From Bacteroides sp. Marseille-P3684 (GTDB taxonomy: Bacteria > Bacteroidota > Bacteroidia > Bacteroidales > Bacteroidaceae): a stretch of 64,000 nucleotides of DNA. The translations under genes and the position numbers were made by a program. How positions within the stretch are numbered: the first letter of the stretch is position 1; each line of letters begins with the position of its first letter. Under the pieces are notes generated by a model. That model searched no databases and was not told where the DNA came from. It was given only the letters and a program-made list of their open reading frames with translations. Where the stretch lies: the NCBI RefSeq assembly GCF_900291465.1, contig NZ_LT985808.1, positions 62,001 through 126,000 of the forward strand, given 5' to 3'. This document shows, piece by piece, positions 208 through 52,258 of the stretch.

Positions 208-269
208 GTACGGACGAACGACTACGACGGTGCGGACACGTCGGTACGGTGGTACGGACGCGTCCGTAC
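208..269. repeat. 22-bp-pitch palindrome array A (3 units)
   Basis: Three 18-bp units start at 208, 230 and 252, exactly 22 bp apart. The unit at 252-269 is a perfect palindrome (gtacggacgcgtccgtac). The other two are degenerate palindromes that keep the GTACGGAC-type left arm and a GTAC or CTAC end. Spacers are 4 bp. The array follows, by 166 bp, an element at 11-42 that is shared with the array C module. Confidence 0.8.
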
Positions 270-520
270 GAAGCCAATCACAGGTGCTTTTGACCGTGTG
301 TATGGGTGCGGAAGATGGTTTTTTCGCGTTAGAAAGAGTGTAATTATACAAACGTATGTTTATTCTGATGTGTTCTGACGGACATCTCTTAAAATATTTA
401 ACGCGCGTTTTTCTAATTGGGACAAATTTGCAGATTTGTGCGTTACCTGAAAACGTTGAATTGGGGAAATGTGATGTTAAAACCGGGAAAACGGTGCCGT
501 TTTGACAAACGGGGAAAAAT

Positions 521-563
521 CCATTGTCCATTGTCCATTGTCCATTGTCAATTGACAATTGTC
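521..563. repeat. Heptamer repeat tract (CCATTGT / CAATTGN)
   Basis: Four copies of CCATTGT in a row (521-548) are followed by CAATTGA and CAATTGT units. The same degenerate 7-bp unit, of the form NNATTGN, builds the tract at 21627-21690. The tract lies upstream of the xusA promoter. Confidence 0.75.
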
Positions 564-640
564 GCCCCTACATTCACTGCCCGATGGGTTCGGGCAGAAA
601 ATCACCATTTTTAGGTATTTCATACCGTCCTGTACGCCTG

Positions 641-648
641 TACCTTTG
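641..648 (+). promoter_or_regulatory. xusA promoter, -7 element TACCTTTG
   Basis: Perfect match to the Bacteroides -7 consensus TAnnTTTG, 42 bp before the ATG at 691. It lies inside the longer open frame that begins at 559, which is why the start at 691 is chosen. Confidence 0.6.
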
Positions 649-690
649 CATCCGCAAAAAAGAACGATTATCAACACACACAAGCTCAAT

Positions 691-2865
691 ATGGACAACG
701 CATTCAAGCGGATGGTTCCTGCGACGTTCGCCGCAGCCCTCTCCCTCTCCGTGTCAGCGCAGACCGACACGCTCATGTTCGGCAACCAGGAGTTGCAAGC
801 CATCGAGATTGTAGCAAAATCGAAAGCACGCAAGCTACAGGAACAGGCTTACGCCATCTCCGTGGTCGACCTGAAGGCGAACCACGCCACCTCCACCCCG
901 ATGAACAAGATTCTCAACACCGTATCCAGCGTCCGCATCCGCGAAGACGGCGGTGTGGGCAGCAATTACACCTTCGCCATGAACGGCTTCTCCGGCAACC
1001 AGGTGAAGTTCTTCCTCGACGGTATCCCCATGGACAACTTCGGCTCCAGCTTCAACCTGGCAAACCTCTCGGCAAACCTCGCCGACCGCGTGGAAGTCTA
1101 CAAGGGCGTGCTGCCCGTCCACCTGGGAGCCGATGCCCTGGGAGGCGCGGTGAACATCGTGTCCCGCATCAACGCCAACTACCTCGACGCCACCTACAGC
1201 GTCGGTTCGTTCAACACCCACAAGGCGAGCGTCAACGGGGCGTACACCAACACACGGACGGGATTCACCCTGCGTGCCAACGCCTTCTTCAACTACTCCA
1301 AGAACGACTATAAGGTCTTTGCCCCCATCGTCGACCTGTCGACGGGACGGAACCTGGGCGACCGCTGGGTGCGCCGTTTCAACGACGACTACCACTCGGC
1401 GGGACTGAAGATGGAGACCGGACTCGTGGGCAGGCCCTGGGCGGACCAGATGCTCGTGGGCGTCATCCTCTCCGAGAACGACAAGCACATCCAGACGGGA
1501 GCGACGATGGACGCCGTGTATGGCAAGGTGAAGTCGAGCAGCTTCAGCCTCATACCTACAATTAGGTATAAGAAGACGAACCTGTTCACGCCGGGACTGG
1601 ACCTGAGCCTCTACGGCACCTACAACGTGGTGAACACGCACAATGTCGACACCGCCGCCGTGGCATACAACTGGCTGGGCGAGTCCGTCCCTGCCACCAG
1701 CCGGGGTGAAGGCTACCTGACCGACGCCCTCATCCAGGAGCGCCAGTGGCAGGGGAACGCCAACCTCAACTACGTCATCAGCGACCACCAGAGCGTGACG
1801 CTCAACCACGTCGTGACCGCCATGCGGCGCAAGCAGGACGACAGGGAGTATCCCGACTACCCGATGAACGGGCAGGCACAGCACCTCACCAAGAACATCA
1901 CCGGACTGGGCTACCAACTCCGCTTCGACCGCTGGAACATGAACATCTTCGGCAAGATGTATGCCCTCTACTCCTCGTCGCACAAGCTGCGCGACCAGTT
2001 CCTGGAGACCGAGCACTGGGAGCAGGTGTCGGAACGCAAGCGGCAGTTCGGCTACGGGGCGGCGGCGACCTACTTCTTCCTCCCCTTCCTCCAGGCAAAG
2101 GTGAGCTTCGAGCAGGCATACCGCATGCCGGAAGCCATCGAGATGTTCGGCGACGGCTTTATCCAGAAGAGCAACCCGGACCTGCAGCCGGAGAACTCGA
2201 AGAATCTCAACATCGGCGTGGGACTGGACAAACGCTTTGAGTCGGGGCACCGCGTCACCGCGGAGGTGAACTACATCTACCGCTACACCAAGGACTTCAT
2301 ACTCAAGGGCGTCAGCCTGACGAGCGACCCGACGACCTCCTACGAGAACATCGGCAAGGCAGTCACCCATGGCATCGAGGCGACCGCCCGCTACGACTAC
2401 GACGACCGCTTCCACGTGGGCGGCAGCCTGACGTACCAGGACATCACCGACCGCGAGAAGACGGCGCGTACCACCGACAGCTACGTCGAACAAGGCTCGA
2501 CGGAGAACGTCTCGTACGGGCAGCGGATGCCGAACATCCCCTACTTCTTCGTCAATGGCGACGCGGGCTACAGCTTCCGCGACGTCCTGGCGCGCGGCAA
2601 CACGCTCTCCATCGACTACTCGTGCGACTATGTCTACAAGTACTACCTGAGCTTTGCCGGTCTGGGACGGCCGACGAGCAAGAAGTATATTCCGACCCAG
2701 TTCGCACACAATGCCTCGGTGAGCTACACGATGCACGACGGACGCTACAGCGTCAGCCTGGAGTGTACCAACCTCACCAACGAGAAGCTCTACGACAACT
2801 ACCGCCTGCAGAAGCCCGGACGCGCCTTCAACGTGAAGTTCCGCCTGTATTTGTCCAACCTCTAA
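691..2865 (+). CDS. xusA: TonB-dependent outer-membrane receptor, XusA-like
   Basis: A 724-residue outer-membrane receptor. The signal peptide runs to about residue 24 (ends SVSAQ), followed by a plug domain (about 35-150, with the NGFSGNQVKFFLDGIPMD stretch) and a 22-strand-type barrel ending in an aromatic-rich C-terminus. It has no carboxypeptidase-like N-terminal extension, so it is a plain TonB receptor rather than a SusC protein. The next two genes encode a DUF4374 lipoprotein and a PepSY membrane protein. That three-gene order is the XusABC xenosiderophore system known from Bacteroides thetaiotaomicron, in which XusA imports ferric siderophores made by other bacteria. The start at 691 lies just after a promoter; an internal ATG at 712 would also leave a signal peptide. 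Iron control is expected from the family, but I did not identify a Fur box. The substrate is inferred from gene order. Confidence 0.85.
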   Translation: MDNAFKRMVPATFAAALSLSVSAQTDTLMFGNQELQAIEIVAKSKARKLQEQAYAISVVDLKANHATSTPMNKILNTVSSVRIREDGGVGSNYTFAMNGFSGNQVKFFLDGIPMDNFGSSFNLANLSANLADRVEVYKGVLPVHLGADALGGAVNIVSRINANYLDATYSVGSFNTHKASVNGAYTNTRTGFTLRANAFFNYSKNDYKVFAPIVDLSTGRNLGDRWVRRFNDDYHSAGLKMETGLVGRPWADQMLVGVILSENDKHIQTGATMDAVYGKVKSSSFSLIPTIRYKKTNLFTPGLDLSLYGTYNVVNTHNVDTAAVAYNWLGESVPATSRGEGYLTDALIQERQWQGNANLNYVISDHQSVTLNHVVTAMRRKQDDREYPDYPMNGQAQHLTKNITGLGYQLRFDRWNMNIFGKMYALYSSSHKLRDQFLETEHWEQVSERKRQFGYGAAATYFFLPFLQAKVSFEQAYRMPEAIEMFGDGFIQKSNPDLQPENSKNLNIGVGLDKRFESGHRVTAEVNYIYRYTKDFILKGVSLTSDPTTSYENIGKAVTHGIEATARYDYDDRFHVGGSLTYQDITDREKTARTTDSYVEQGSTENVSYGQRMPNIPYFFVNGDAGYSFRDVLARGNTLSIDYSCDYVYKYYLSFAGLGRPTSKKYIPTQFAHNASVSYTMHDGRYSVSLECTNLTNEKLYDNYRLQKPGRAFNVKFRLYLSNL

Positions 2866-2881
2866 CCCCCTTTCCACACAC

Positions 2882-4111
2882 ATGAACGCAATGAAACCAT
2901 TCAGACTACAGATAGCCGGCTGGGCACTCGCCTGCACGGCACTCGCCGCAACCTTCACCGCTTGCGACGACGACATGGGGAGCCTCGAAGTCCCCAACGA
3001 ACCCTATGTACTCTCGCTCGGCATCACCTCGGGCAACACGACCACCTACTACGTCGTCACCACCGACGACCTCATGGGCGAGCGGCCCATCAACGCCTAC
3101 AGCAAGGGCATCGAGCAGAACGGCTACCGCGACTACCAGCAGGCGGAGCAGACGGTCTTCTCCATAGGCGGACTGGGTGTGACCAGCGCCACGGGCATTC
3201 AACGGGATGCCGAGGGCTACCTGCAGGAGACGGGCGACTTCGTGTTCGACAACACACCCATCGGCTTCTGTCAGGTGGACGGGGAGAAGATGGCGGCACT
3301 GGAACTGCCCAAGTCACCAGGCAAGGGTCAGAACCTGACGTTCTACACGGTCAACATCCGTACCCTGGAGCTGGAGAGCCGCGTCACCACCACTCCCGTG
3401 GCACCGCTGGACGCAGTTGACTGGCCGTCGGTCACCGGCATGACGTATGCAGGAGGAAACCTCTACGTGAGCTACGTCCCCATGAACCCGAACACGTTTG
3501 CCACCCCGGCGGTGGACACGGCCTACGTGGCGGTGTACAGCTATCCGGACTTCCGCTTCAAGACGCTCATCAAGGACACGCGACTGGGAAACATCGGCAG
3601 CTGGAACGCCTTTAACGGCTTTCAGAAGGACGAGCAGGGCGACGTCATCGCCATGTCGAACACGAGCCTGACGAACGGGTTCTCACAGAGCAACGGCAAG
3701 TCCGGCTTCCTGAAAATCAAGGCGGGCGACACGCAGTTTGCCGACGACTACTTCTTCGACTACGAGGCACTGACGGGCTACAAGGTCGCCCACTGGCTCT
3801 ACGTCGGCGACGGCAAGGTGTATGCCGAGGTGTCGACCAACCAGCAGGCAGGTGCCTGGAGCGATGCCGAGGACCTGAGCGTACTCATCGACCTGAACAA
3901 GAAGAGCCACACCGTCATCCAGGAAATCCCGCTGCACAGCGGACAGGGCGGACGCCGCTTCGTCGCCTACGCGGAAGGAGGCTACGTCTATGCCCCGATA
4001 GCCACCGCGGACGGCGTGTACATCTACCGCACGGAGATTGCCACGGGAAAGGCGGTGCGCGGCGCCAAGATTTCAGCCACCTTCGTAGGCGGACTCTTCC
4101 GCCTCGACTAA
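2882..4111 (+). CDS. xusB: DUF4374 surface lipoprotein, XusB-like siderophore-binding protein
   Basis: A 409-residue lipoprotein. The signal peptide ends at a lipobox (TFTAC, Cys about 28), followed by three Asp residues, an acidic stretch that in Bacteroidetes favours display on the cell surface. The rest reads as a beta-propeller-like DUF4374 domain (regular strands, GNLYVSYVP and VYAPIATADGVYIYR repeats). In the known XusABC system this protein binds iron-loaded siderophores such as enterobactin outside the cell and works with the receptor. It starts 16 bp after xusA and ends 13 bp before xusC, so the three genes form one operon. A second ATG at 2891 is possible. Family assignment is firm; ligand identity is inferred. 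Confidence 0.83.
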   Translation: MNAMKPFRLQIAGWALACTALAATFTACDDDMGSLEVPNEPYVLSLGITSGNTTTYYVVTTDDLMGERPINAYSKGIEQNGYRDYQQAEQTVFSIGGLGVTSATGIQRDAEGYLQETGDFVFDNTPIGFCQVDGEKMAALELPKSPGKGQNLTFYTVNIRTLELESRVTTTPVAPLDAVDWPSVTGMTYAGGNLYVSYVPMNPNTFATPAVDTAYVAVYSYPDFRFKTLIKDTRLGNIGSWNAFNGFQKDEQGDVIAMSNTSLTNGFSQSNGKSGFLKIKAGDTQFADDYFFDYEALTGYKVAHWLYVGDGKVYAEVSTNQQAGAWSDAEDLSVLIDLNKKSHTVIQEIPLHSGQGGRRFVAYAEGGYVYAPIATADGVYIYRTEIATGKAVRGAKISATFVGGLFRLD

Positions 4112-4124
4112 CCGCCTGCCGACC

Positions 4125-5222
4125 ATGAAGAGACTATTCAGCCTTCTGCACCGCTGGCTCGGACTCGTGTCGGGCCTCATCGTGATGGTCGTGTGCCTCA
4201 CGGGCAGTCTCTATGTGTTCAGGGACGAGGTGGAGGCAGTGTGCGAGCCTTGGCGACGGGTGCCCGTCCGCGACGCGGAGATGCTTCCCCCTTCGGCGCT
4301 GCTGAAGGCTGCGGGCGATGCTTCCGCCCTCACGCTGGGCACTGCCGGCGAAGCGGCACGGCTCGACGCCTATGCCCCACAAGGCACGACAACGACCTAT
4401 GCAGACCCCTACACGGGAGAAGTCCTGAAGGTCATCCGGCGCGAGCCGGGCGATGCAGGTTTCTTCGCCTTCCTGCTCGACGGTCACCGTAACCTCTGGC
4501 TGCCGCGCTCCATCGGCGGTCCGTTGGTGTCCTATGCCGTCCTCGTCTTCTTCCTGGCACTGGTCACGGGGCTGGTCGTCTCCTGGCCGAAACGTTGGAA
4601 CCGGAAGGCGGTGCAGAGCCACTTCACCTTCCACCGTCCACTGCGAGCCGCCCGTTTCCGCCTTGACCTGCACAACGTGTTGGGCTTTTATGCCACGCTG
4701 CCCCTGCTCGTCCTCTGCCTGACGGGGCTGCTCTTCGGACTATCATGGTTCTCCGGAGGGCTCTATCGCCTGGTGTCGGGCGGACAGGTCATGCAGGGTT
4801 ACAGCCTGCCGTCGTCCGACAGCACGAACGCCGGAGCGGACACCCCCTCCATCGACCTCCTGCACGCCCGCCTGAAAGCGGAGGAGCCCGATGCCGTGCA
4901 GTTCTACTACGCGCTGCCGCAAACCGCGTCCGGGGTCTACCGTGTGAGCATCGTCCACGAACGGGGCAGCTACTACAAGCAGGACAACCGCTTCTTCGAC
5001 CGGTACACCCTCCGCGAGCTGCAAGGCACCGGCCCGTGGGCAGGCAGATACACCGACGCCTCCCCCGCCGACAAGATGATGCGCATGAACCTCGACATTC
5101 ACGAGGGCCGTATCTGGGGTATATGGGGCAAGATGCTGATGTGTCTGGCATCGCTCGTCGGTGCCAGCCTTCCCGTGACGGGATATATCTTGTGGTGGAA
5201 AAAGAGACGGAGGAAAGCCTAA
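4125..5222 (+). CDS. xusC: PepSY-domain inner-membrane protein, XusC-like reductase candidate
   Basis: A 365-residue membrane protein of the PepSY-associated TM family. There is an N-terminal helix (about 12-32, GLVSGLIVMVVCLTGSLYVF), a periplasmic PepSY-like domain, two helices (about 138-160 and 190-212), a second periplasmic domain, and a last helix (about 335-357) followed by a basic tail WWKKRRRKA. Conserved His residues at the start (LLHRWLG), middle (HNVLGFY) and before the last helix (DIHEGRIWG) fit the haem-ligating pattern of PepSY ferric reductases. As the third xus gene it probably releases iron from siderophores by reduction; that role is an inference from family and position. 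It is followed by a terminator shared with the convergent waaA. Confidence 0.8.
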   Translation: MKRLFSLLHRWLGLVSGLIVMVVCLTGSLYVFRDEVEAVCEPWRRVPVRDAEMLPPSALLKAAGDASALTLGTAGEAARLDAYAPQGTTTTYADPYTGEVLKVIRREPGDAGFFAFLLDGHRNLWLPRSIGGPLVSYAVLVFFLALVTGLVVSWPKRWNRKAVQSHFTFHRPLRAARFRLDLHNVLGFYATLPLLVLCLTGLLFGLSWFSGGLYRLVSGGQVMQGYSLPSSDSTNAGADTPSIDLLHARLKAEEPDAVQFYYALPQTASGVYRVSIVHERGSYYKQDNRFFDRYTLRELQGTGPWAGRYTDASPADKMMRMNLDIHEGRIWGIWGKMLMCLASLVGASLPVTGYILWWKKRRRKA

Positions 5223-5296
5223 GGAACAGTTCTCCCGGCCGTGTATCCTGGAACCGGAAAACACATGGCGGTCACTGCCGCCTCCTGAAACAAACA

Positions 5297-5340
5297 AAGC
5301 GCGGATGATGCCGATTCTCACATCGACATCATCCGCGCTT
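5297..5340. terminator. Bidirectional terminator between xusC and waaA
   Basis: A 14-bp perfect stem (5297-5310 with 5327-5340, arm AAGCGCGGATGATG) with a 16-nt loop sits between two convergent genes. No long U-tract is seen on either side. Confidence 0.6.
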
Positions 5341-5379
5341 GCTATACCTTATATATAAGGTGAATCGGACACCGGCTAC

Positions 5380-6597: not shown

Positions 6598-6609
6598 GGG
6601 CGCGGACGG

Positions 6610-8127: not shown

Positions 8128-8154
8128 GCTATAAGTATTATGTAATTAATGCGG

Positions 8155-8162
8155 CAAAAGTA
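8155..8162 (-). promoter_or_regulatory. gltX promoter, -7 element
   Basis: On the minus strand the sequence reads TACTTTTG, matching TAnnTTTG. It lies 28 bp upstream of the gltX ATG. Confidence 0.55.
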
Positions 8163-8200
8163 CGACATTTTTTTGGAAGAAGGGTAGTAGCAGCGGACGA

Positions 8201-8233
8201 AAAAGCCCCGCCGTGCAGGGAGCAGAGCGGGGC
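8201..8233 (-). terminator. Rho-independent terminator after the zinc-ribbon/DUF2231 gene
   Basis: On the minus strand a GCCCCGC/GCGGGGC stem is followed directly by five T residues (GCGGGGCTTTTTCG), a classic intrinsic terminator 30 bp past the stop at 8264. Confidence 0.75.
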
Positions 8234-16310: not shown

Positions 16311-16367
16311 CCTTCAACGTGCCACCTGCCTGCCTTCAGCGAGCGACAAGCCTGCCCTTAATGGACC

Positions 16368-16426
16368 AAAGTATTATACTTAGGGGGTCTAAGTATTATA
16401 CTTAGGCAGGCAAAGTATTATACTTT
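16368..16426. repeat. 22-bp-pitch palindrome array B (3 units)
   Basis: Three copies of the 15-bp near-palindrome WAAGTATTATACTTW start at 16368, 16390 and 16412, exactly 22 bp apart. The outer flanks GGACCAAAG (from 16363) and CTTTGGTCC (to 16431) are themselves reverse complements, so the whole block is symmetric. Confidence 0.85.
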
Positions 16427-16540
16427 GGTCCCTGTATCCCGTGCTTGTACGTTCAACCGGGCGCAACATTCACGACCTGAACCTTTGTGGAAAAGACGGA
16501 AGTTGATTATTTTCGCCGTCAGAACCAATCCATCACATCC

Positions 16541-21583: not shown

Positions 21584-21626
21584 AACAAGCAACGGACAAC
21601 TGGCAATGCCCGGAAGGTCTCATTGC

Positions 21627-21690
21627 CCAATTGCCCATTGCTTATTGCTCATTGTCAATCGTCAATTGTCAATTGTCAATTGTCAATTGA
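21627..21690. repeat. Heptamer repeat tract running into the copA stop codon
   Basis: About nine 7-bp units of the form NNATTGN in a row (CAATTGC, CCATTGC, TTATTGC, TCATTGT, CAATCGT, then CAATTGT/CAATTGA). The last unit contains the copA stop codon on the minus strand, so the copA C-terminal Ile-Asn-stop is written by the repeat. The unit matches the tract at 521-563. Confidence 0.8.
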
Positions 21691-24797: not shown

Positions 24798-26330
24798 TTA
24801 TTGCATCTTGGTATGGGCAGAATTACCCTTTTTCCATGCTATAGCCGATTCTGTTAGTCTATATCTTTGCTTTGGATGATTGGGCTGTTCAGGATACATT
24901 GGCTCAATTGCACCATCTTCCAACGTTGGCTGAAAATAGTTTTTCCGGAATGATGTACGATGTTTGAAGCCCATATTTGACATTATTTCATTCATAGTCA
25001 TATAGTCTTCACTCATTGAAAGAATCATTTCTTGAACTTGAGGAGTACTTGGTCGGTAGTTGAGCGGTACTTGGTCAGTAGTTGAGCGGTACTTGGCCTC
25101 TTTGGTTGCTTGCTTATCCTCCTTGTCTGTCTTTATTGTGCCGTATGCGAAATCGGGGCGCTTGAACGTGATAGTTACAAAACCACCATTGGAAGACCAT
25201 GTAGGAGCTTCCACTCCTTGTACCTGACAAGCATCCATGATACGCTTTGCACCGCTCCCCCAGTTTTCCAGATAAGTCATCCGATAAAGAGCTTCCGCCA
25301 CTTTCAGGTTATGTGGATACGACTCATGAGGTTCCTTGATGTTCTCTGGAGTTATCTGTGGTGGGAACATACCGGGACTTGCTATTTCTATGCGGTCGTC
25401 ATAAATTGCAAGACTGATTGTCAAATTATATTTCTCCCAATGGCGATGACAAAGCGCATTGACAAGAGCTTCCCTTAACGCATGATAAGGCACTTCAAGC
25501 TGTTCCTCCCGCTCCAAACTATGATTCGTGATTCTACCACTGAGAGAAAGATGCTTGAAACAGAACGCAACTCCGGCATCTAAAAGTTGGAAGAAATTAC
25601 CCTCAGCACGTTGATTGTCTCGGAACATGTTTTTATTCGTACCCACAAACCGCGCCATTCTTAGCGCAAATTGTGGATACTCGTCTATGTTATTGGAGAA
25701 TAACAATACCGCACCATTAGTCGGCACGCCATTCTTAAGCAACTTCCATTTTGAAAGAATATCTCCGGTCGGTTCATACAATGCCGACTCAGGAATACGT
25801 CCACCGTCAATACCTCGACGGATGCAGTTGCGAATCAGGTTTTCATCAAGATCTGCCAATGCTACACCGTCAGCTACCAACCTTTCCCACGCATACATCT
25901 GTGGTTGATGAGCGCGGATTCGTTCATCATACATGTCCTGTGGCATGACTTTCGTGGTACTTTCAACTTTGTAATACGGACAGCCATGGAATGTATGCGG
26001 ACGCTCACCCCACACCCATCCGTCAAAGTGCATGGCAATAACCTTATGTCCGGCATACTCCGGCACATCAACATATACCACTTTTACATCTACAGCAGGT
26101 TCCAATCCTGCCAAAGCCTGAGCAATCTCCTGCTGTGTCCTGTCGGTTACTTCCTGTCCGATTATTTTTAGCGATTTCGGTGCAACACCAAAAATCAGCC
26201 AACCGCCTTCTGTATTTAGAAACGCACACGCTGAGTGCATAGCGTCTTTCAATTCGCCGGTACTCTTCTTCAGCTCTAAAGTCCGAGACTCATCGACTGA
26301 GACAAGATTCTTTATATCTTCAATTGTCAT
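24798..26330 (-). CDS. AlbA_2 DNA-binding domain / GHKL-type ATPase protein
   Basis: A 510-residue protein of the AlbA_2 (Schlafen-like) plus HATPase_c_4 type, often annotated as a putative transcriptional regulator. The N-domain (about 10-135) contains ESRTLELKKSTGELKDAM and the LNTEGGWLIFGV strand typical of AlbA_2. The ATPase part (about 255-400) has the N-box EALVNALCHR and G-boxes IEIASPG and ENWGSGAKRI. A winged-helix-like C-terminus (about 425-505) follows a linker built on a 22-bp DNA repeat (25045-25096). GC content is clearly lower than the neighbours, and a repeat-rich gap of 1.1 kb lies upstream, consistent with horizontal arrival. A defence or accessory role is possible for this family, but the context does not show one. 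The start at 26330 gives the usual N-terminus MTIEDIKNLV. Confidence 0.8.
   Translation of the reverse strand: MTIEDIKNLVSVDESRTLELKKSTGELKDAMHSACAFLNTEGGWLIFGVAPKSLKIIGQEVTDRTQQEIAQALAGLEPAVDVKVVYVDVPEYAGHKVIAMHFDGWVWGERPHTFHGCPYYKVESTTKVMPQDMYDERIRAHQPQMYAWERLVADGVALADLDENLIRNCIRRGIDGGRIPESALYEPTGDILSKWKLLKNGVPTNGAVLLFSNNIDEYPQFALRMARFVGTNKNMFRDNQRAEGNFFQLLDAGVAFCFKHLSLSGRITNHSLEREEQLEVPYHALREALVNALCHRHWEKYNLTISLAIYDDRIEIASPGMFPPQITPENIKEPHESYPHNLKVAEALYRMTYLENWGSGAKRIMDACQVQGVEAPTWSSNGGFVTITFKRPDFAYGTIKTDKEDKQATKEAKYRSTTDQVPLNYRPSTPQVQEMILSMSEDYMTMNEIMSNMGFKHRTSFRKNYFQPTLEDGAIEPMYPEQPNHPKQRYRLTESAIAWKKGNSAHTKMQ
25045..25096. repeat. Intragenic 22-bp direct repeat
   Basis: Units starting at 25045 and 25067 are each 22 bp and differ at one base (gtacttggtcRgtagttgagcg); a partial third unit starts at 25089. 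Since 22 is not a multiple of three, successive units are read in different frames, giving the linker peptides STTDQVPLNYRPSTPQV. Confidence 0.8.
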
Positions 26331-26644
26331 TATCTCATTACTTTTTAGTGTAATCGTTATCAATCTACGCAGAAAGGCAATATTCAAGAGTGCCCAAGCC
26401 TCACAAGCATATCAAGAGAGTAAACAACCTTCAATCCATTGATTTTTTTTTAATTCCAGATCTCTTAAATTGCCTGTTAATCACAACACTTTGATTTATA
26501 ATGCAAATCTAGCCATAATATTTGGGAATATCGCTTTAGCCTGCAGAAAAAAGAACAGAAGGAAACTTCAATGCACATGACATCAATTATGCATTATATT
26601 ATAGTCAAAAGAATCCTCCACTAACAAAATGACAAAACGTCAAA

Positions 26645-26719
26645 CGAATCGCCTGAGAAGGGCCTTCCTTGGAATAAAACATGAGTTGGTGACCGGGAAG
26701 GGCCTTCTCAGGCGATTCG
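26645..26719. repeat. Long-armed hairpin with arm shared with position 11-42
   Basis: Arms of 24 bp (26645-26668, 26696-26719) are reverse complements except at one position in the run of G and C, with a 27-nt loop. The right arm and 8 bp before it recur at 11-42 with few differences (gaccgggaaggg, then ttctcaggcgattcg). Confidence 0.8.
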
Positions 26720-26929
26720 CAAAATACATGATGACACTCTTCTGACCATTCTTATATCCTTCTGCCTTGATTCGAAGAAAAAGCAGTTCTTTCATCCACT
26801 AAAACGAAGGAGAAGCCTGCAATTTCATAATTTGAGAAACGAACACTGCACACGCAAACTAGAGGTAAAAGAAGGTGAAATTCGGTATATTGTTGTTATC
26901 TGTCGAGAAAATCAAATGTTCGACTCGCG

Positions 26930-27031
26930 AAACAATATTGTTTGGCGAGTCAAACAATATTGTTGGAGATGGCAAACACAAGTGTTTGATGCGTGAAACA
27001 ATATTGTTTGAAGGTATAAACATGCAAGTTT
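26930..27031. repeat. 22-bp-pitch palindrome array C (5 units)
   Basis: Fourteen-bp palindromes start at 26930 (AAACAATATTGTTT), 26952 (same, last base changed), 26974 (AAACACAAGTGTTT), 26996 (AAACAATATTGTTT) and 27018 (AAACATGCAAGTTT), each exactly 22 bp apart. In the unit at 26974 both arms changed together so that most of the symmetry is kept. Units outside this range fade. Confidence 0.88.
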
Positions 27032-27419
27032 CAGCGTTAAATGGAATGTTTATGCGTCCAAAAGCGCATATCTATTCCTAAAAAAACCTACTTTACCCGT
27101 TTTTCCCAAAATACACGTTAGCCGGAAAAGGCAGAAATGCCAATTCTGTCAAGCAAATCCCATCTTTTGCTTTCTTTCCGTTTTGTGGAATCTTTACATC
27201 AGGGGAGAGGCTGTTCGCTCATCTCTCCTATTGCTTTTTTCCAAAAAGGAAAATAACTTCCGGTTATCTTTACCAGACACGGAAGAGAACTCGTACATTT
27301 ACAAAATATCCCTGTGAAGAATACGGAAATTTATGCAATTCCAATCCTGTTTCCTTCACGATTCATTCTCAATTCATAAAGACTTTATCCGGCGCGATAC
27401 AGTGTAATCTATTTTTATT

Positions 27420-34685: not shown

Positions 34686-36023
34686 ATGAATATTGAAAAC
34701 ATCATGGCTTCCTTGGAAGCCAAACACCCGGGCGAATTGGAATATCTGCAAGCCGTGAGAGAAGTGCTCATGTCTATCGAAGATATCTACAACCAACATC
34801 CTGAATTTGAAAAAGTGAGCCTTATCGAACGCTTAGTGGAACCCGATCGCATTTTCACCTTCAGAGTTCCTTGGGTAGACGATAATGGTAAAGTTCAAGT
34901 AAACCTCGGTTACCGCGTTCAGTTCAACAACGCCATTGGCCCGTACAAAGGCGGTATCCGTTTCCACGCATCTGTCAATTTGTCAATTCTGAAGTTCTTG
35001 GGCTTCGAACAAACCTTCAAGAATGCCTTGACCACATTGCCTATGGGCGGTGGCAAGGGTGGCTCAGACTTCTCTCCGCGCGGTAAGAGCGACGCTGAAG
35101 TAATGCGTTTCTGCCAAGCCTTCATCCTCGAATTGTGGCGTCACCTCGGTCCTGACATGGACGTTCCCGCCGGCGACATCGGCGTAGGCGGTCGCGAAGT
35201 GGGCTATATGTTCGGTATGTACAAGAAGCTGACCCGCGAATTTACAGGTACATTCACCGGTAAGGGATTGGAATTCGGTGGTTCGCTGATTCGTCCTGAA
35301 GCAACCGGTTTCGGCGGCTTGTATTTCGTAAACCACATGCTGCAAACCAAAGGCATTGACATCAAAGGCAAGACTGTTGCCATCTCCGGTTTCGGTAACG
35401 TGGCTTGGGGTGCTGCAACCAAGGCAACCCAACTCGGTGCCAAAGTAGTCACCATCTCCGGTCCTGACGGTTATGTATATGACCCGGACGGCATCAGTGG
35501 CGAAAAGATTGACTATATGCTCGAACTCCGTGCTTCGGGTAACGATATCGTAGCTCCCTACGCAGAGAAATATCCGAATGCCAAATTCGTAGCCGGACGT
35601 CGTCCTTGGGAAGTGAAAGTGGACATCGCTCTGCCTTGCGCAACCCAGAACGAACTGAATGGAGAAGACGCCAAAGCCTTAATCAATAACAATGTGACTT
35701 GTGTAGGTGAGATTTCCAACATGGGATGTACGCCGGAAGCTATCGACGCTTTCATCGAGCATAAGATCCTCTACGCTCCGGGTAAGGCAGTCAATGCCGG
35801 TGGTGTTGCCACCTCGGGCTTGGAAATGAGCCAAAACGCAATGCATATCAGCTGGACTGCTGAAGAAGTAGACCGCAGACTTCACGAAATTATGGGTAAC
35901 ATCCACGCACAGTGCGTGAAGTATGGTACACAACCTGACGGTTACATTAATTACGTGAAGGGTGCAAACATTGCAGGCTTCATGAAAGTGGCTCATGCAA
36001 TGATGGCACAAGGAATCGTTTAA
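34686..36023 (+). CDS. gdhA: Glutamate dehydrogenase
   Basis: A 445-residue cytoplasmic enzyme making glutamate from 2-oxoglutarate and ammonia. The N-domain includes YKGGIRFHASVNLSILKFLGFEQ and the catalytic Lys motif PMGGGKGGSDF (near 119-129). The nucleotide-binding domain has GFGNVAWGA (near 236-244). Length matches the hexameric family. Codon use is more selective and AT-leaning than in the neighbours, as expected for a highly expressed gene, and it has a consensus promoter and a strong terminator. Coenzyme preference is not decided from sequence here. Confidence 0.96.
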   Translation: MNIENIMASLEAKHPGELEYLQAVREVLMSIEDIYNQHPEFEKVSLIERLVEPDRIFTFRVPWVDDNGKVQVNLGYRVQFNNAIGPYKGGIRFHASVNLSILKFLGFEQTFKNALTTLPMGGGKGGSDFSPRGKSDAEVMRFCQAFILELWRHLGPDMDVPAGDIGVGGREVGYMFGMYKKLTREFTGTFTGKGLEFGGSLIRPEATGFGGLYFVNHMLQTKGIDIKGKTVAISGFGNVAWGAATKATQLGAKVVTISGPDGYVYDPDGISGEKIDYMLELRASGNDIVAPYAEKYPNAKFVAGRRPWEVKVDIALPCATQNELNGEDAKALINNNVTCVGEISNMGCTPEAIDAFIEHKILYAPGKAVNAGGVATSGLEMSQNAMHISWTAEEVDRRLHEIMGNIHAQCVKYGTQPDGYINYVKGANIAGFMKVAHAMMAQGIV

Positions 36024-36066
36024 TAATAGAATCTCGTTTAGTTGTATTTGTATTTTGTATTGTAAC

Positions 36067-36107
36067 ATGCTGCCCATCGCCTGCGAAGGTCATGGGCAGC
36101 ATTTTTT
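36067..36107 (+). terminator. gdhA terminator
   Basis: An 11-bp perfect stem ATGCTGCCCAT/ATGGGCAGCAT followed by a run of T, 43 bp past the stop. Confidence 0.85.
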
Positions 36108-36110
36108 ATG

Positions 36111-36138
36111 TTCATCATTCACTGCTCATCGTTCATCG
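36111..36138. repeat. Heptamer repeat tract covering the thioesterase stop codon
   Basis: Four 7-bp units TTCATCA, TTCACTG, CTCATCG, TTCATCG in a row. Read on the minus strand they are GATGAAC-type units and contain the stop codon and last residues of the thioesterase, the same placement as the tract at copA. Confidence 0.65.
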
Positions 36139-40099: not shown

Positions 40100-40131
40100 T
40101 GCCCGACGGATGACATGCCGATGGGAATTTC

Positions 40132-40263
40132 AGTTCCACGCCGTGGGAATGACAGTTCCACGCCGTGGGACTCATAGTCCCAGGCTTTGGGACTCACAGT
40201 TCCACGCTTTGGGACTCGCAGTCCCAAGCCCTGGAACTCGAAGTCCCAAGCCGTATAGGACTA
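40132..40263. repeat. 22-bp-pitch palindrome array D (6 units)
   Basis: Six 22-bp units start at 40132, 40154, 40176, 40198, 40220 and 40242. Each has arms AGTTCCA or AGTCCCA on the left and TGGGACT, TGGGAAT or TGGAACT on the right around a 5-bp centre such as cgccg or ggctt. Unit 3 has perfect arms; most others carry one mismatch. A faded half unit precedes the first. Confidence 0.9.
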
Positions 40264-42031: not shown

Positions 42032-42041
42032 AGATTCCCGT

Positions 42042-45897: not shown

Positions 45898-45913
45898 AAT
45901 GACTGCTTTTTAA

Positions 45914-46915: not shown

Positions 46916-46930
46916 TGGTTTTCATGTCAG

Positions 46931-47869
46931 TTAATTCCATTCGGGCTTGCCGTCCACGATAACCCATTCGGGCAGTTCGATGGAGACGTTCACGCCGTGG
47001 AAAGTGATGGATATCGGCAGTGCTGCCTCTTGAAGAGTCACATCAATTTCATCGTCGTAGTACTGCAGGTAGTTGTAGATATTGCCACGCACGAGCTCTT
47101 TGCCGGTGGCTTTCTCGGTCAATACCAGCGTATGTTCGCAACAGTCTTCCGACAGGATACCGTCGCAGTCCATGCGGAACACCGCCAGGTCGTCCGTGCG
47201 ATAACACTGCTCCGTGTCATCCCACACGAGGTCGGGATAGAGCGTTCCCTTCTCGTCCTGATTGACAGCATTATTGAACGACGTCTGTGCGTTGGAGTTT
47301 TCAAGGCTCAACTGATAAGCGATGCCATCGGCACGTGTTCCCGGTGCAGGCAGTCCGTGTATTTCCACCTGCATGTCGATGTGCGAACTGTAGAGGGTCA
47401 CTGTGTCGCGATACATCACCCCTTCGCCTCCGGGAAGGAAAAATTCCTTCTGACCCATGTAGTTGTGGTCATGCGACGTCACCGGATCGCCGCTTCCCCA
47501 GTTGGGATGCTGGATAAAGATGTCATCGAAGCTGGTAGCCTGCAGGTTCACCACCTCCGTTGCATCGTAGGCATTGCCAACCGCCACCACCTTATAACGT
47601 TTTCCGACAGGCAACTTAAACGACGGTTTGGCTGCAAAGTGTGAGAGTTCGTCCTGGTTGTAATGGCCGACGCCGAGGATGTGTCCGCCTTCATCGAAAA
47701 CATACAGGTCTACCTTACTCATGTATTGATAAAGTACATCCGTATCGCCGTCCGCCAGATATTGGAAGTAGATGGTCACGTTGTCGCAATCATCATAGTC
47801 TTCTTTGATGCAGCCGGTAGCCAGGACGAGTGCCACCAGCATCAGCATTATGTTTCTTATTTGTTTCAT
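46931..47869 (-). CDS. mfa2: FimB/Mfa2-family fimbrial anchor lipoprotein
   Basis: A 312-residue lipoprotein (lipobox LATGC, Cys about 20, then IKEDYDDC). The mature protein shows the FimB/Mfa2 pattern of two beta-sandwich domains (VTIYFQYLADGDTDVLYQYMSKVDLYVFDEGG; SHIDMQVEIHGLP). In Porphyromonas Mfa2 anchors the fimbria in the outer membrane and limits its length. It is separated from the major subunit gene by 135 bp containing a terminator-like hairpin, so it is probably made in lower amount. Confidence 0.87.
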   Translation of the reverse strand: MKQIRNIMLMLVALVLATGCIKEDYDDCDNVTIYFQYLADGDTDVLYQYMSKVDLYVFDEGGHILGVGHYNQDELSHFAAKPSFKLPVGKRYKVVAVGNAYDATEVVNLQATSFDDIFIQHPNWGSGDPVTSHDHNYMGQKEFFLPGGEGVMYRDTVTLYSSHIDMQVEIHGLPAPGTRADGIAYQLSLENSNAQTSFNNAVNQDEKGTLYPDLVWDDTEQCYRTDDLAVFRMDCDGILSEDCCEHTLVLTEKATGKELVRGNIYNYLQYYDDEIDVTLQEAALPISITFHGVNVSIELPEWVIVDGKPEWN

Positions 47870-47941
47870 ATACTCATCCGTGTTTATTTGTTGACAAGGA
47901 TCAAACTGTATGTTTATTCCGTAAGAGGGAGGGAAAAGAGA

Positions 47942-47975
47942 GCAAGGCGGAGCGGTTTGCAGTGCTCCGCCTTGC
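47942..47975 (-). terminator. Intra-operon terminator between mfa1 and mfa2
   Basis: A 12-bp perfect GC-rich stem (GCAAGGCGGAGC/GCTCCGCCTTGC) with a 10-nt loop, 29 bp past the mfa1 stop, followed on the minus strand by a pyrimidine-rich CTCTCTTTTCCC stretch. It probably terminates part of the transcripts so that the major subunit exceeds the minor ones. Confidence 0.65.
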
Positions 47976-48004
47976 CATGATACGTGTTTATGATTATTGG
48001 GGGA

Positions 48005-49114
48005 TTAGTTCCACTCTACACTACCGGTCGCAATGGTCCAAGCTTTCACAGTGACAACGGCATAGATATGCACATCTTCACCTCCCTGCCAGCCTTGGCC
48101 GATAGCCTCATCAGGAATTTCAAGCGACTCCACCTTATAGATGTATCCTGCCGGGAATTTGGTAATCACATTGTCATCACCTGCACCAAATGCTTCTTTA
48201 TAAGCAGCAGATGCCTCATCCAGTTTGTAGTTTTTCACCGTAGCGTATCCAAAACCATTTGTCGGCCAGATGGTTCCAGCGTAATCGGTCGTATTGATGG
48301 AGATGTTGCTAAAGCATACCTTCAATGTCGGCAATTCACCACTGGTGACGGGAGCTATATTGAAGGCATAGCATTGGTTATTTGCAGGCCATACAGGGGA
48401 CTGTATCTCTTCATTGTATTTCGCAAAGTCCTCATTGATTGCAGGGCTACTCATCAGGTTGTTGACATCCCAAGCTTCTGCCTCAGCCACCCCTGCAACT
48501 CCATCGAGCATCACGCCATCAATCTTGATGGTATTGAACATACACTTCTTACCAGCTGTGTCCACGTGTTTGATGCCACCGAATTCCAGACGGGCCATTG
48601 TGTGCTCAGGCTCCAGTGCCACTTCATATTCCGTGATACCATCCTCGTCCTTATCACCCTTATTCACAAATTTTGTGGCAACTTCCGAATCATACAACGG
48701 TTCTGCCAGACCAGCATTGACAAATTCTTCGGGCGTCCAACCGCTGGACTTTTCAGTATTGATAAAGACCTCCATTTTTGACGGGTTACGTACGCCGGTG
48801 AACTGGAACTCCTTAACAGCCTCCAACATGGCTTGACGGGGATTCTCCTCTTCTGCAAAATCAGCAAGGTTGAACACCTTGTCTGTACCACCCTGTTGAG
48901 CAGTCAGCACCAGCTTGATAGAGTTCAAGGTCACCTCTTCGGAAGTAGTATAATCTGCTACCGGAATGGCTCTGCTCAATGCCGGTTCGGCAATATTCAC
49001 ACGAATGGTTGCTTCTCCTTCAATGGCTGCACTTGTGCCAAAATCTTCTTCATTACTGCAAGCAGCAAATGCCAGTGCTGCTGCTGAGAACATAATAAAA
49101 CTTCTTAGTTTCAT
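48005..49114 (-). CDS. mfa1: Mfa1-type major fimbrial subunit
   Basis: A 369-residue fimbrillin. The signal peptide ends at a lipobox (AFAAC, Cys about 18). After the mature N-terminus comes ATIRVNIAEPALSRAIPV; the Arg in LSRA is a candidate site for the Rgp-like protease cleavage that activates fimbrillins for donor-strand polymerisation. Two beta-sandwich domains follow, ending AWTIATGSVEWN, as in Mfa1 proteins. The start at 49114 gives a normal signal peptide. Confidence 0.87.
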   Translation of the reverse strand: MKLRSFIMFSAAALAFAACSNEEDFGTSAAIEGEATIRVNIAEPALSRAIPVADYTTSEEVTLNSIKLVLTAQQGGTDKVFNLADFAEEENPRQAMLEAVKEFQFTGVRNPSKMEVFINTEKSSGWTPEEFVNAGLAEPLYDSEVATKFVNKGDKDEDGITEYEVALEPEHTMARLEFGGIKHVDTAGKKCMFNTIKIDGVMLDGVAGVAEAEAWDVNNLMSSPAINEDFAKYNEEIQSPVWPANNQCYAFNIAPVTSGELPTLKVCFSNISINTTDYAGTIWPTNGFGYATVKNYKLDEASAAYKEAFGAGDDNVITKFPAGYIYKVESLEIPDEAIGQGWQGGEDVHIYAVVTVKAWTIATGSVEWN

Positions 49115-49171
49115 ACTCTTTAATTTTAAATTAAACAATCAGTTAATATGTAGGTTCTTACACTTCGTGAC

Positions 49172-50626
49172 TTACAGTTGCTCCATCACCTTCAGCAGTT
49201 GTTCCAGGTTGGTGCGTGCGTCGGTGTTGCCCTCATTTGTCGACGCTTCAAGCAGGGCTTTTGCCTTGGCATACTCACCGGCTTTGGCGTATGCCACACC
49301 CAGGGTGTTTTTTGCGGAAGCATCGAGTTGCTTGCCTTCCAGCAGGGCAATGGCGGCACGCACCTCGTTCTGCTCCAGCTTCGTCACTGCCGCATTGCCT
49401 AGTGCCACGGGATTCTCGGGATAGGTGCGGGCGGCAATGTCCATCGCCTCATTGTATTCCGCCGTTCCCTTGCCGTAGCTGCCGGCAACCTGATACATCT
49501 CATTTAGGCTCAGGAGCTTCGGACTTTTCCGGAGGAGTTGCCGCGCTTCCTCCAGGTTGAAGTTGCGCACGTTGTACTCGATGCGGTATTCGTTGCGGCG
49601 CAACGGACCGTACATCTCATTGAGCAACCGCTCGTAAATCTGTGGCGGAACCAATGCCTTCAGCTGTTCCTCGCAGGCATCCCGGTCACCGTCGCAACCG
49701 TCGATGATGGCAAGTACTTCATCTATTTTCAACAGACGGGGATGCTTCTGCACTTCTTCGCGCAGCCCTTCCCAGTCTTCTCCCTTCCAGTCTACGTGCC
49801 ACAGCGAAGCGGGGATACCGGTGTTCTGTTTCTTCACATAATCTGTAAAGGTCTTTGCCCGTCGTTCGGAGAGCTTCAGGTTGTAAGCCACCGTACCTTC
49901 GGGAGAGGCATATCCCGTGACGTAGATACCCGTTATGGTGAGGTCCTTATTGTCCTTCACGGCATCGATGGAGGCTTGCACGTCGGCGAGTTCACGGGCA
50001 TTGTCCTTGAACTTCGGGTCAGTCGTGTAGCTGTCCTGACGGTATTGCAGACGGGCACTGCGCACCTCGTCACGCCGTTTCACCGGTTCGGGCACCGGCT
50101 CTTGCAAGGTCAGCCGATAGTCGGGTACAAAACGTGCCAATACCAGCGGATCGAGCGTCGATGTCTCACCGCCCTCGCCACAGTCGGCACAACCCGTCAC
50201 CGCCTCGCGCACCTCCAGCCGGCTGTCATACATCCAGCGTGCAAAGGGTGCCGTGGCTTCATAACTGACGGTCTGCGCCTCGCCGTTCTTCCGACGGACG
50301 GTAGTCTGTACATGCTCATACACAGGCTTTCCCGTCAGTGCCTCCTGACGCCGGATGGCGCGGTTGCGGATGCGTCCGTTGACCACCACCGACGGGAGTT
50401 CCAGTTCGTTGCGTCCGTCTTTTGACACCAGTACAGGCACCAGCTGTGTGGTGTGCTGACGCTTCATCTTCACGTCGCTCAGGTCGAAGCGCATCGTCAC
50501 ACGCACCTCGTCGCCCACACGCCGCACCTCGCGGCCGCTCACCTCGATGTCCTTCATATAGCCCGTCTGGGCAAAGGCGCTCATGCCCGCCAGGAGCATG
50601 GTTGCCAGGAGAATATGTCTTTTCAT
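49172..50626 (-). CDS. DUF3868 / OmpA-domain fimbrial-locus protein
   Basis: A 484-residue protein with a signal peptide (ends SAFAQ, near 20), an N-terminal DUF3868 beta-domain (about 22-140), an OmpA-like domain (about 175-300, ITGIYVTGYASPEGTVAYNLKLSERRAKTFTDYV), and tetratricopeptide-like helices at the C-terminus (about 380-484). In related loci it precedes the fimbrillin gene and is thought to help assemble or secure fimbriae at the outer membrane. It begins 14 bp after the DUF3575 gene. Confidence 0.82.
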   Translation of the reverse strand: MKRHILLATMLLAGMSAFAQTGYMKDIEVSGREVRRVGDEVRVTMRFDLSDVKMKRQHTTQLVPVLVSKDGRNELELPSVVVNGRIRNRAIRRQEALTGKPVYEHVQTTVRRKNGEAQTVSYEATAPFARWMYDSRLEVREAVTGCADCGEGGETSTLDPLVLARFVPDYRLTLQEPVPEPVKRRDEVRSARLQYRQDSYTTDPKFKDNARELADVQASIDAVKDNKDLTITGIYVTGYASPEGTVAYNLKLSERRAKTFTDYVKKQNTGIPASLWHVDWKGEDWEGLREEVQKHPRLLKIDEVLAIIDGCDGDRDACEEQLKALVPPQIYERLLNEMYGPLRRNEYRIEYNVRNFNLEEARQLLRKSPKLLSLNEMYQVAGSYGKGTAEYNEAMDIAARTYPENPVALGNAAVTKLEQNEVRAAIALLEGKQLDASAKNTLGVAYAKAGEYAKAKALLEASTNEGNTDARTNLEQLLKVMEQL

Positions 50627-50640
50627 AGTTGCCCTCCTCG

Positions 50641-51219
50641 TTACTTGATGATGTAGATGATTGACAGAGCCGCCTTCGTCAGCCCCAGGTAGTTCTTGTG
50701 TCCGCGCCCCAGCATTTCTCCGCAGTGGCCGCACTCATAACGCTTGTAGTTGGCATGGATGAACCCTAATCCCAGTTCGGCCTCCAGGCTCCAGCGGTTG
50801 CCGAGTATCCAGTGATAGCCGTAGCCCACACCGCCTCCGGCAAACCAGCCTTGTGCGCGTGAGTTTTCCAGTGCGCTGAACGTGCCGAAGGGCAAGTCAA
50901 GGTTCGAGAGGTTGAACTCTCCGCCCAGGGCATGGAGTGCAAAGAAGTGTCCGTTGAAGCGCTCGCAGAGCCAGTAGCGTCCTTCGGGCTGCACCATCCA
51001 GTGCTTCAGCTTCTTGTCGTCAGAGAAAGTCCAGGGATTGTAGTTGCCGGACACATCGAGTGTCCATTTCGGCGCCAAGCCGACTTCCACGCCCAGATTG
51101 AGTGTCGTGGTGGCATCATAGAGCAGGTTGCTCTTGACCGCCCACCTTTGGGCGTGCAGCGGAGCTGCGAATAGGAGGAAAAGCCCCGCCGTCAACAGAT
51201 ACAGGAGTCTGCGTTTCAT
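50641..51219 (-). CDS. DUF3575 outer-membrane protein
   Basis: A 192-residue outer-membrane barrel of the DUF3575 family, first gene of the fimbrial operon. The signal peptide ends near residue 24 (PLHAQ); the family start WAVKSNLLYDATTTLNLGVE follows, and short aromatic strands build a small barrel. A Cys pair (YECGHCGEM) near 162-167 is notable. The family always sits with fimbrial or DUF3868 genes; its exact role is unknown. Confidence 0.82.
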   Translation of the reverse strand: MKRRLLYLLTAGLFLLFAAPLHAQRWAVKSNLLYDATTTLNLGVEVGLAPKWTLDVSGNYNPWTFSDDKKLKHWMVQPEGRYWLCERFNGHFFALHALGGEFNLSNLDLPFGTFSALENSRAQGWFAGGGVGYGYHWILGNRWSLEAELGLGFIHANYKRYECGHCGEMLGRGHKNYLGLTKAALSIIYIIK

Positions 51220-51349
51220 ATTGTAGATATTTAGTAGTTATCATTGTCTCTTTTCCACTCAGGGGAGCCGGATTCTGACAAAGGATCGCTCTCTTTAATG
51301 ACCCTCGACTCCGGGTGCTCCGGCAACATCCGGTTGATTATCTCGTCTG

Positions 51350-51357
51350 CAAATATA
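51350..51357 (-). promoter_or_regulatory. Fimbrial operon promoter, TATATTTG
   Basis: Perfect minus-strand TAnnTTTG match, 131 bp before the DUF3575 ATG, leaving a leader of about 125 nt. I found no clear inverted repeats flanking it of the kind seen at invertible promoters. Confidence 0.5.
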
Positions 51358-52112
51358 AATTATTTTTCCAATAGATTGTATCCAAATTTTATTCCTGTTT
51401 TTACAATACAGGACTATCTGCACATTTGCTCCCGACGGCAAGAATCTCCAGAATTGAGACCGCATCGTCCTTCATTCAGCCTTCAAAATATAAATATTTA
51501 TTACCTATCTGTTTCCTCATGTACCTTACAGACCCGTTTACCACACGCCATTTACTAAAATACTCATTTTCAAAATTTAAAATTCAGGACAATTTAGACC
51601 AAAAGAAACGAATAAATATCCGACATTTATCCGCCCTGCACCTTTAATTATATACGCAACTTGCTTTACCATCAAAACGTATATATTTATTACCTGCATC
51701 CGGAATCCTTCACCACACTTATCCCTACAGCAAACCCAACAAAACGCCTTCTTATTTTCCCAAAATTCATTTACATTTCCGATAATAATTTAACCCTTTC
51801 ATTAACTTTTTTAACCCTCATCTTCCAGTCTTCTTTCCAGGCATGCAACTGGAAATCCGCTTCGGTTGGAACAGGAACGGACGGGATTCAAACCTGGAAA
51901 GGAAGGCTCAGCCAAACCCAATAAGGACGTGAGAGTACAGGAAAAGTACTTGTTCCTTTCTATCCTATTGATACCAAAAACGCCTCTATCGCTGACACAT
52001 TTACGCAAATCAAGGTTTTCAGCTAACGCACACTTTGAGAAAATCGGGCAAAGCAGGTTATTTTAAGAATATCCATGCAGTTCAAAGCGCATAGTTATCC
52101 AAAAGCAGGGGT

Positions 52113-52258
52113 AAAAGCGAATATTTATACCGCGAAACAATATTGTTTGAGAGGTCAAACACTTGTGTTTGGTGCGTGAAACAATATTGTTTGACGACCC
52201 AAACAATATTGTTTCGTCCGTCGAACAAAAGTGTCAGCACTGCGAAATACTCATTTTT
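52113..52258. repeat. 22-bp-pitch palindrome array E (4 strong plus fading units)
   Basis: Fourteen-bp palindromes start at 52135 (AAACAATATTGTTT), 52157 (AAACACTTGTGTTT), 52179 and 52201 (both AAACAATATTGTTT), exactly 22 bp apart. Degenerate units in phase occur at 52113 (AAAAGCGAATATTT), 52223 and 52245. Unit type matches array C. Confidence 0.88.

Follow-up and report, generated by a model that had tools for sequence, protein, structure and literature searches.

Arrays of palindromes at a fixed pitch in a Bacteroides genome as putative operators and dispersed platforms of HU-like proteins

Here, we analysed rows of short palindromes, hereafter called arrays, in a stretch of 64,000 nucleotides from Bacteroides sp. 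Marseille-P3684 (contig NZ_LT985808.1, positions 62,001 to 126,000), referred to as the window, and followed them through the rest of this genome and through related genomes. All five arrays of an earlier preliminary description could be recovered at the window positions given there; they fall into four unit types, termed A to D. With a probability of roughly two in three, we propose that these arrays are operators and dispersed platforms for the putative binding of paralog-specific HU-like proteins of the HU-HIG type (HU_rel). Our data lend good support to the earlier idea that the arrays are platforms bound by a family of dimeric proteins, for which a candidate family can be named. What we observe directly is the arrays, their pitch and dispersal, a stronger conservation of palindromes than of spacers, an association with HU-HIG genes, the agreement of operator units with dispersed units in several families, and a tendency of similar proteins to have pitch and unit in common.

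The pitch was assessed by scoring dyad symmetry at every position and demanding at least three palindromes spaced by the pitch in question. In the window, three units with at least 7 of 9 paired positions were found at six starts for a pitch of 22.0 bp, compared to a mean of 0.05 in 20 shuffles, and among pitches of 14–40 bp only 22.0 bp was prominent, joined at the looser threshold of 6 of 9 by 33 bp, i.e. three half-pitches. A larger sample of the chromosome, consisting of the window and 800 kb (864 kb of 3.708 Mb), yielded 35 loci at 22.0 bp, 10 at 33.0 bp, one at 33.5 bp and three at 44.0 bp, with none at the remaining pitches among the 66 scanned (12 to 44.5 bp). Three shuffles of the same 864 kb gave no locus at 22.0 bp, and one of them a single locus at 40.0 bp. 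The pitch of exactly 22 bp noted initially holds for the examined part of this genome, but across relatives it ranges from 21 to 24 bp.

Rows with other units are present at named loci and in stretches of Parabacteroides, Reichenbachiella agariperforans, Prevotella ihumii and others. Since the named loci in other genomes were found using the family A pattern, A-like units at these loci are an ascertainment effect. Within 100 kb of Parabacteroides PF5-6 we observed at least four unit families, every one of them at 22 bp, and stretches of 100–180 kb from Parabacteroides massiliensis, Reichenbachiella and the congener G003 contained one row each. G003 and a second congener, G008, have rows spaced at 23 bp. 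No 22-bp rows were found in the scanned stretches of P. ihumii and G010, and no rows above stricter thresholds in those of G009 and G006. Two further repeats came to our attention in these genomes: rows of a 9-bp repeat with the core TCGGAC that flank an HU-HIG gene of P. ihumii (L227) on either side, and a large inverted repeat in Parabacteroides PF5-6 (L201:3441-3610), with two GC-rich palindromes 22 bp apart on each side of a short gap.

In three Parabacteroides, an orthologous array, with diverged spacers, lies upstream of a gene matching PF18291 (HU-HIG), and an array is found at the corresponding locus of a fourth, P. massiliensis. A metagenome-assembled genome of the Bacteroidales (L139) likewise carries an array roughly 110–140 bp upstream of an HU-like gene. 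These arrays led to a wider test of the regions upstream of HU-HIG genes. In a discovery set of 92 PF18291 matches from eight genomes, 26 short, weak or broken matches were dropped and 66 full-length ones scored for three palindromes at a pitch of 20–26 bp within 450 bp of the gene, with z>4 counted as positive. Rows were present upstream of 22 of the 66 HU-HIG genes and downstream of one in 61, compared to 19 of 703 upstream regions of other predicted open reading frames (ORFs) in the same genomes (Fisher p=7e-15), and upstream of none of the five canonical HU genes of the discovery genomes. At least one match above z 4 (G061:C1:746408, AT-rich, pitch 24) is doubtful by eye. The operator units vary from one HU-HIG gene to another.

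Because several of the eight discovery genomes had already shown arrays, a test in further genomes was needed. HU-HIG-rich genomes were taken from among the matches listed for 60 genomes of the order and picked without looking for arrays; from the 63 intact HU-HIG genes listed in seven genomes, 46 were scored, and the 17 left out comprised eight of the fragmented genome G047, seven less than about 600 bp away from a contig end, and two with no room. Upstream rows above z 4 were obtained for 9 of the 46 genes, compared to 0 of 37 upstream controls from 60 kb of three of these genomes (p=0.004) and to the 19 positives among the 703 discovery controls (p=1.6e-5). None of 19 canonical HU-like genes in the held-out set exceeded z 2.3. 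The upstream excess at HU-HIG genes is a property of the group, not of most single genes.

HU-HIG proteins are reportedly the subject of a 2017 paper by Burroughs and colleagues. The partner genes considered here match PF18291 or TIGR01201 above the curated cut-off and so belong to this branch, the L135 gene scoring 103 bits with PF18291 and 92 bits with TIGR01201; one HU-HIG protein additionally matches the HU of a solved structure (1b8z, E 4e-6) by sequence. According to Pfam, HU-HIG combines an HU domain in one fusion with a winged helix, an immunoglobulin (Ig) or a glycine-rich part.

Bacteroides sp. Marseille-P3684 itself has five HU-HIG genes, two of them with an array directly upstream. 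A B array (C1:1959803-1959869) ends 156 bp before the ATG, at 1960026, of a gene scoring 97 bits with TIGR01201 and 65 bits with PF18291, and a C array at about 440530-440619 is followed after about 250 bp by the ATG, at 440866, of a gene scoring 63.8 bits with PF18291. No upstream array is visible for two of the other HU-HIG genes. As candidate partners of the window arrays, those of B and C are good, that of A is weak, and D has none. Upstream of three of the own HU-HIG genes (L231, L239 and C1:1556000-1556200), shared AACGCAA half-site motifs (GTGAACGCAA and the like) were seen by eye.

Whether operators and dispersed arrays agree was followed with 26 operator units (z of at least 3.5), which were searched against stretches of the genomes. 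Ten of them matched arrays in their genome of origin, two of the ten only themselves. The B operator unit was found at 15 places in its own genome and the C unit at 11, one of these being the operator itself, and neither was found in the sequence examined from seven other genomes. The unit of gene C15:12702 occurs twice more in G008, again at a pitch of 23 bp, and the held-out genome G070 contains, within a 10-kb stretch picked at will and free of HU-HIG genes, a row of pitch 23 that shares its unit with the operator of gene C92:401.

Similar proteins furthermore tend to have similar arrays. Protein pairs of at least 45% identity, a cut-off chosen after the results for all pairs had been seen, have more similar operator units (p=0.004 for arrays with z>3, p=0.0008 for z>4). 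They also share their pitch more often, in 13 of 16 pairs vs 155 of 449 at z>4 (p=0.002), in 15 of 20 vs 332 of 841 at z>3 (p=0.007) and, for pairs between genomes, in 6 of 8 vs 127 of 405 (p=0.019). The effect is weaker for dyad parity (p=0.04 for z>3, 0.13 for z>4). In a subclade of ten genes with a YPQ motif, defined after looking at the data, all five arrays above z 3 are odd-centred, compared to 8 of 37 others (p=0.0015), and four paralogs of G059 above z 4 share a pitch of 21 bp.

Several observations have to be set against our proposal. A clear upstream array (z>4) is lacking at 44 of the 66 discovery and 37 of the 46 held-out HU-HIG genes, and in genome G009 none of five exceeds z 2.5. 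Downstream rows in the held-out set are nearly as frequent as upstream ones (7 of 44 vs 2 of 44 controls, p=0.16); some of these stand beside short HU-HIG genes of G070, and others resemble GC-rich terminators. For 16 of the 26 operators no array was found in the own-genome stretches, and two operators matched arrays in other genomes. In Mantel tests over all pairs, the results of which had been seen before the 45% cut-off was chosen, unit similarity was not significant (p=0.19), nor was parity, and pitch gave p=0.11 for z>3 and 0.04 for z>4. None of the scored HU-HIG operators matches two dispersed families of Parabacteroides PF5-6, one of which is the most frequent family in this genome's sample, and the structure model was of low confidence (predicted local distance difference test score, pLDDT, 45). 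In Bacteroides sp. Marseille-P3684, the HU-HIG gene nearest to family A (C1:1555705) lies about 640 bp downstream of an A array with a box in between, a placement which may be due to chance, and array D is without an HU-HIG neighbour. Finally, 10 of 71 sites of the looser A-type pattern AAACANNNNTGTTT have no like neighbour within 70 bp; most of the ten sit within decayed rows, and at least two sites appear to be solitary.

The exact units behave otherwise: none of 40 AAACAATATTGTTT sites and none of 62 B sites in the 864 kb lacks a like neighbour within 70 bp, and single transcription-factor sites are unlikely for A and B on this ground. Family A consists of AAACAATATTGTTT units with one AAACACTTGTGTTT unit at a fixed place, family B follows the pattern AAGTATNATACTT, and both are dispersed genome-wide, with 110 (A) and 113 (B) pattern matches per strand in the whole genome and at least about 44 and 48 loci, respectively, compiled from the matches listed. 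Family C was found at 11 places in 800 kb, one of which is the array upstream of the HU-HIG gene at C1:440866, and the unit of array D once in the 864-kb sample. The units, first described as specific to their locus, are specific to their family, as three of the four unit types of the window (A, B and C) recur at many loci. None of the 60 relatives examined, which include 14 congeners, contains the exact A or B pattern, and within the set of 61 genomes the units of both families are confined to this species. Diverged units, palindromic and in register, extend B arrays by about three to four further pitches and A arrays by about two. At C1:1443811-1444254 (L069), 17 near-identical B units are followed by decayed A-like units in the same 22-bp register.

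Family A arrays sit in dispersed elements with a mutual identity of 67–82% over up to about 600 bp, array included; the closest pair, the window copy at 26930 and a copy at 2.199 Mb, is 90% identical over 762 bp. The earlier guess of a replicating or recombining element is borne out in part, by the dispersed elements of up to about 600–760 bp around family A arrays. A box, TCTCAGGCGATTCG, accompanies many of these elements. In the own DNA examined it occurs in 28 copies with at most two mismatches. An array of family A, A2 or C lies 201–303 bp ahead of 17 copies and 275–364 bp behind eight, and the other three are free of such arrays within 500 bp; B arrays were not found near any box. Fifteen box-anchored elements were picked irrespective of palindromes and scored for 22-bp rows, with a maximum score of 28: 13 hold a row scoring 21–27, one of C type scores 16, and one scores 14 and has no row. 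Many B arrays begin with GACC and end with GGTC.

Among 13 A arrays, which were chosen for their palindromes so that the first value is biased upward, the mean pairwise identity is 0.968 for palindromes, 0.503 for spacers and 0.331 for distant flanks. This difference suggests selection on the palindromes after the elements had spread. The matching of changes in one arm by changes in the other, stressed in the preliminary description, bears up only partly: in family A, the order of AATATT and CACTTGTG units is fixed by descent, and in one congener array, read from its sequence, the arms seem to vary independently.

In another explanation, the arrays are selfish repeats resembling repetitive extragenic palindromic (REP) sequences or miniature inverted-repeat transposable elements (MITEs), moved by a transposase in trans, with the palindromes serving as its sites or arising as by-products and the proximity to HU-HIG genes being secondary. 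The element structure of family A, the box shared at 201–303 bp from many arrays, the absence of families A and B from congeners and a layout that, judged from the published parts considered, resembles both REPs with their REP-associated tyrosine transposases (RAYTs) and the BrickBuilt MITE speak for this explanation. However, the palindromes have stayed 97% identical in copies whose spacers and flanks have drifted apart, which suggests selection after insertion, and selfish spread leaves unexplained both the arrays beside HU-HIG genes and the pitch common to similar proteins. A Y1 transposase (PF01797) is lacking from this genome, in which other transposases were not searched for, compared to matches in 5 of 14 control genomes, and RAYT-driven REPs were rejected as an identity. 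We regard selfish repeats as the foremost alternative, albeit an unlikely one.

Operators of a different regulator, controlling HU-HIG genes along with other loci, would also place arrays in the promoter region of HU-HIG genes, where they are indeed found. In Parabacteroides PF5-6, however, eight operators above z 3 all differ in their units, two pairs being alike, so that one regulator can hardly serve all of them, and similar HU-HIG proteins share unit and pitch. This makes such a regulator improbable.

Arrays of RNA hairpins or terminators at gene ends are a still poorer match. It is true that most arrays (34 of 39) fall outside ORFs of at least 150 aa, that 11 of the 32 arrays between two such ORFs lie between convergent ones (6.1 expected, p=0.07), and that some downstream arrays resemble terminators; a preference for gene ends was not adopted, the convergent excess being weak. 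Against hairpins, the stems are short and AU-rich by eye, several palindromes leave no unpaired loop, the arms of the congener array mentioned above seem to vary independently, an Rfam search of the window gave no match at gathering score, and nothing obvious in RNA would call for a rigid pitch. Taken together, these points render the explanation very improbable. Chance or neutral tandem repetition can practically be dismissed: plain duplication does enlarge some arrays, such as the 17 near-identical B units at C1:1443811, but shuffles contain no loci at 22 bp, neighbouring pitches are empty, and palindromes are conserved above spacers.

We propose a model in which dimers of a single HU-HIG protein, a predicted HU-like DNA-binding protein with diverged paralogs in many Bacteroidota, would occupy each array site by site. 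HU acts as a dimer, and placing one dimer on each palindrome, at intervals of two helical turns, agrees with what the sequence shows. At a pitch of 21–24 bp, neighbouring dimers would lie on about the same helix face, where they could contact each other and bind cooperatively. Every paralog would recognise its own unit, and for a sizeable part of them one array, roughly 100–300 bp upstream of the own gene, probably mediates autoregulation, as its operator position suggests. Further copies would be dispersed, mainly between genes, carried here by MITE-like elements (A, C) and by short GACC...GGTC elements (B). On these copies, bound protein would probably compact, bridge or silence DNA, the alternative being passive spread by the elements. 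Binding, cooperativity, autoregulation and the role of the dispersed copies are what we infer from these arrangements.

HU-type proteins are textbook DNA packagers with little sequence preference. If private palindromes in rows of constant pitch are indeed what each HU-HIG paralog reads, a widespread but little-studied protein family of the Bacteroidota would gain predicted targets that are open to immediate testing, pairs of protein and array could reveal how DNA-binding specificity and spacing evolve, and a class of dispersed intergenic repeats in Bacteroidota genomes would be accounted for. A more far-reaching and speculative version, which we consider doubtful, is an address system of Bacteroidota chromosomes, in which each paralog of a large and fast-diverging HU-like family would write its private palindrome code and pitch as rows of sites across the genome and would thereby mark or fold particular regions. 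The chromosomal spread of A and B does differ (circular two-sample permutation test, p=0.0015), the interval 1.88-2.91 Mb holding 21 of the 48 B loci and a single one of the 44 A loci. Two facts weigh against addresses: taken by itself, A shows no significant unevenness (Rayleigh p=0.26), and three copies of the A2 subfamily, which was excluded from this count, lie in the same interval.

Within the window, array C (208..271, no strand assigned) consists of partly decayed units of GTACGGACG-CGTCCGTAC type at 22-bp pitch, seen in the sequence and as a period of 22 by Tandem Repeats Finder; a TCTCAGGCGATTCG box (29..42, plus strand) stands about 200 bp before it. Array B (16364..16430, no strand assigned), between the priA gene and a gene of the OmpA family, has a GACC start, a GGTC end and three odd-centred AAGTATTATACTT palindromes spaced at 22 bp. 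In the priA-ompA intergene of the congener loci read, the flank was unalignable by eye and no empty site was visible. The first array A (26926..27031, minus strand) has four core palindromes, three AAACAATATTGTTT, one of them mismatched, and one AAACACAAGTGTTT, plus a decayed unit, and belongs to the dispersed element whose approximate extent is 26463..27223 (minus strand) and which forms the 90% pair with the copy at C1:2.199 Mb. The box of this A element (26706..26719, plus strand) is accompanied by an inverted copy (26645..26658, minus strand), the two standing 61 bp apart within 26645-26719. In the second array A (52131..52240, plus strand), the units follow the order AATATT, CACTTGTG, AATATT, AATATT, with a further, decayed unit on the outside. 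Array D (40131..40260, no strand assigned) is built of TGGGACT half-sites in alternating orientation, with steps of 10 and 12 bp adding up to 22, and lies between a gene of HxlR type and one that encodes a diaminopimelate dehydrogenase C-terminal domain.

Besides the arrays, the window contains 7- to 8-bp tandem repeats (TCCATTG, ATTGTCA or TGTCAATT type) at 520-563, 21619-21689 and 34973-34988, and a 22-bp (11-bp) tandem repeat at 25036-25096, located in an open gene that encodes Schlafen AlbA_2, RecG-C-like and Fic-like domains. About 960 bp at 35154-36117 are 80% identical to an unannotated phage record from human faeces (MT836172). A search of viral contigs with a gene adjoining array A returned two relatives and no lead.

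In the open-licence literature of PubMed Central, we found neither the arrays nor their link to HU-HIG described. By family, the proteins beside the arrays belong to the HU-HIG branch (PF18291, TIGR01201) of the HU/IHF superfamily. MatP with matS and ParB/Noc are examples of a dimeric protein with dispersed palindromic chromosomal sites, which are single sites. These proteins are unrelated to HU-HIG, and in contrast to their single sites we observe rows at 21–24 bp and many paralogs with private sites. The likeness of a spacer-centred TGTTT-N8-AAACA to parS led nowhere, and no parS-like site occurred in the sample. Clustered regularly interspaced short palindromic repeats (CRISPR) are unlikely, since the spacers measure 8–9 nt and the copies are dispersed.

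In layout, the nearest published repeat that we found is the BrickBuilt MITE of Porphyromonas gingivalis, described in the passages considered as a dispersed intergenic element with a core of tandem 23-nt repeats and IS5-like terminal repeats (PMC4596501). As far as these passages go, both are dispersed intergenic Bacteroidales elements with a core of short tandem units; the units described here are palindromic and differ from the 23-nt consensus, and the passages make no link to HU-HIG. Identity with BrickBuilt was ruled out, its consensus unit being no more palindromic than chance (36% of shuffles reach its score). In logic, the nearest known system is formed by REPs and bacterial interspersed mosaic elements (BIMEs) with their RAYT. 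As general background, drawn in part from PMC3733652 and PMC6006769, these are short palindromes in many intergenic copies, private to a species, with a cognate gene flanked by its own repeats. The arrays of Bacteroides sp. Marseille-P3684 share with this description the short intergenic palindromes in many copies, the restriction to one species and the position beside a putative cognate gene, and differ in that no Y1 transposase is present, in that mostly three to five palindromes form rows at a fixed 22 bp, and in that the neighbouring gene is HU-like.

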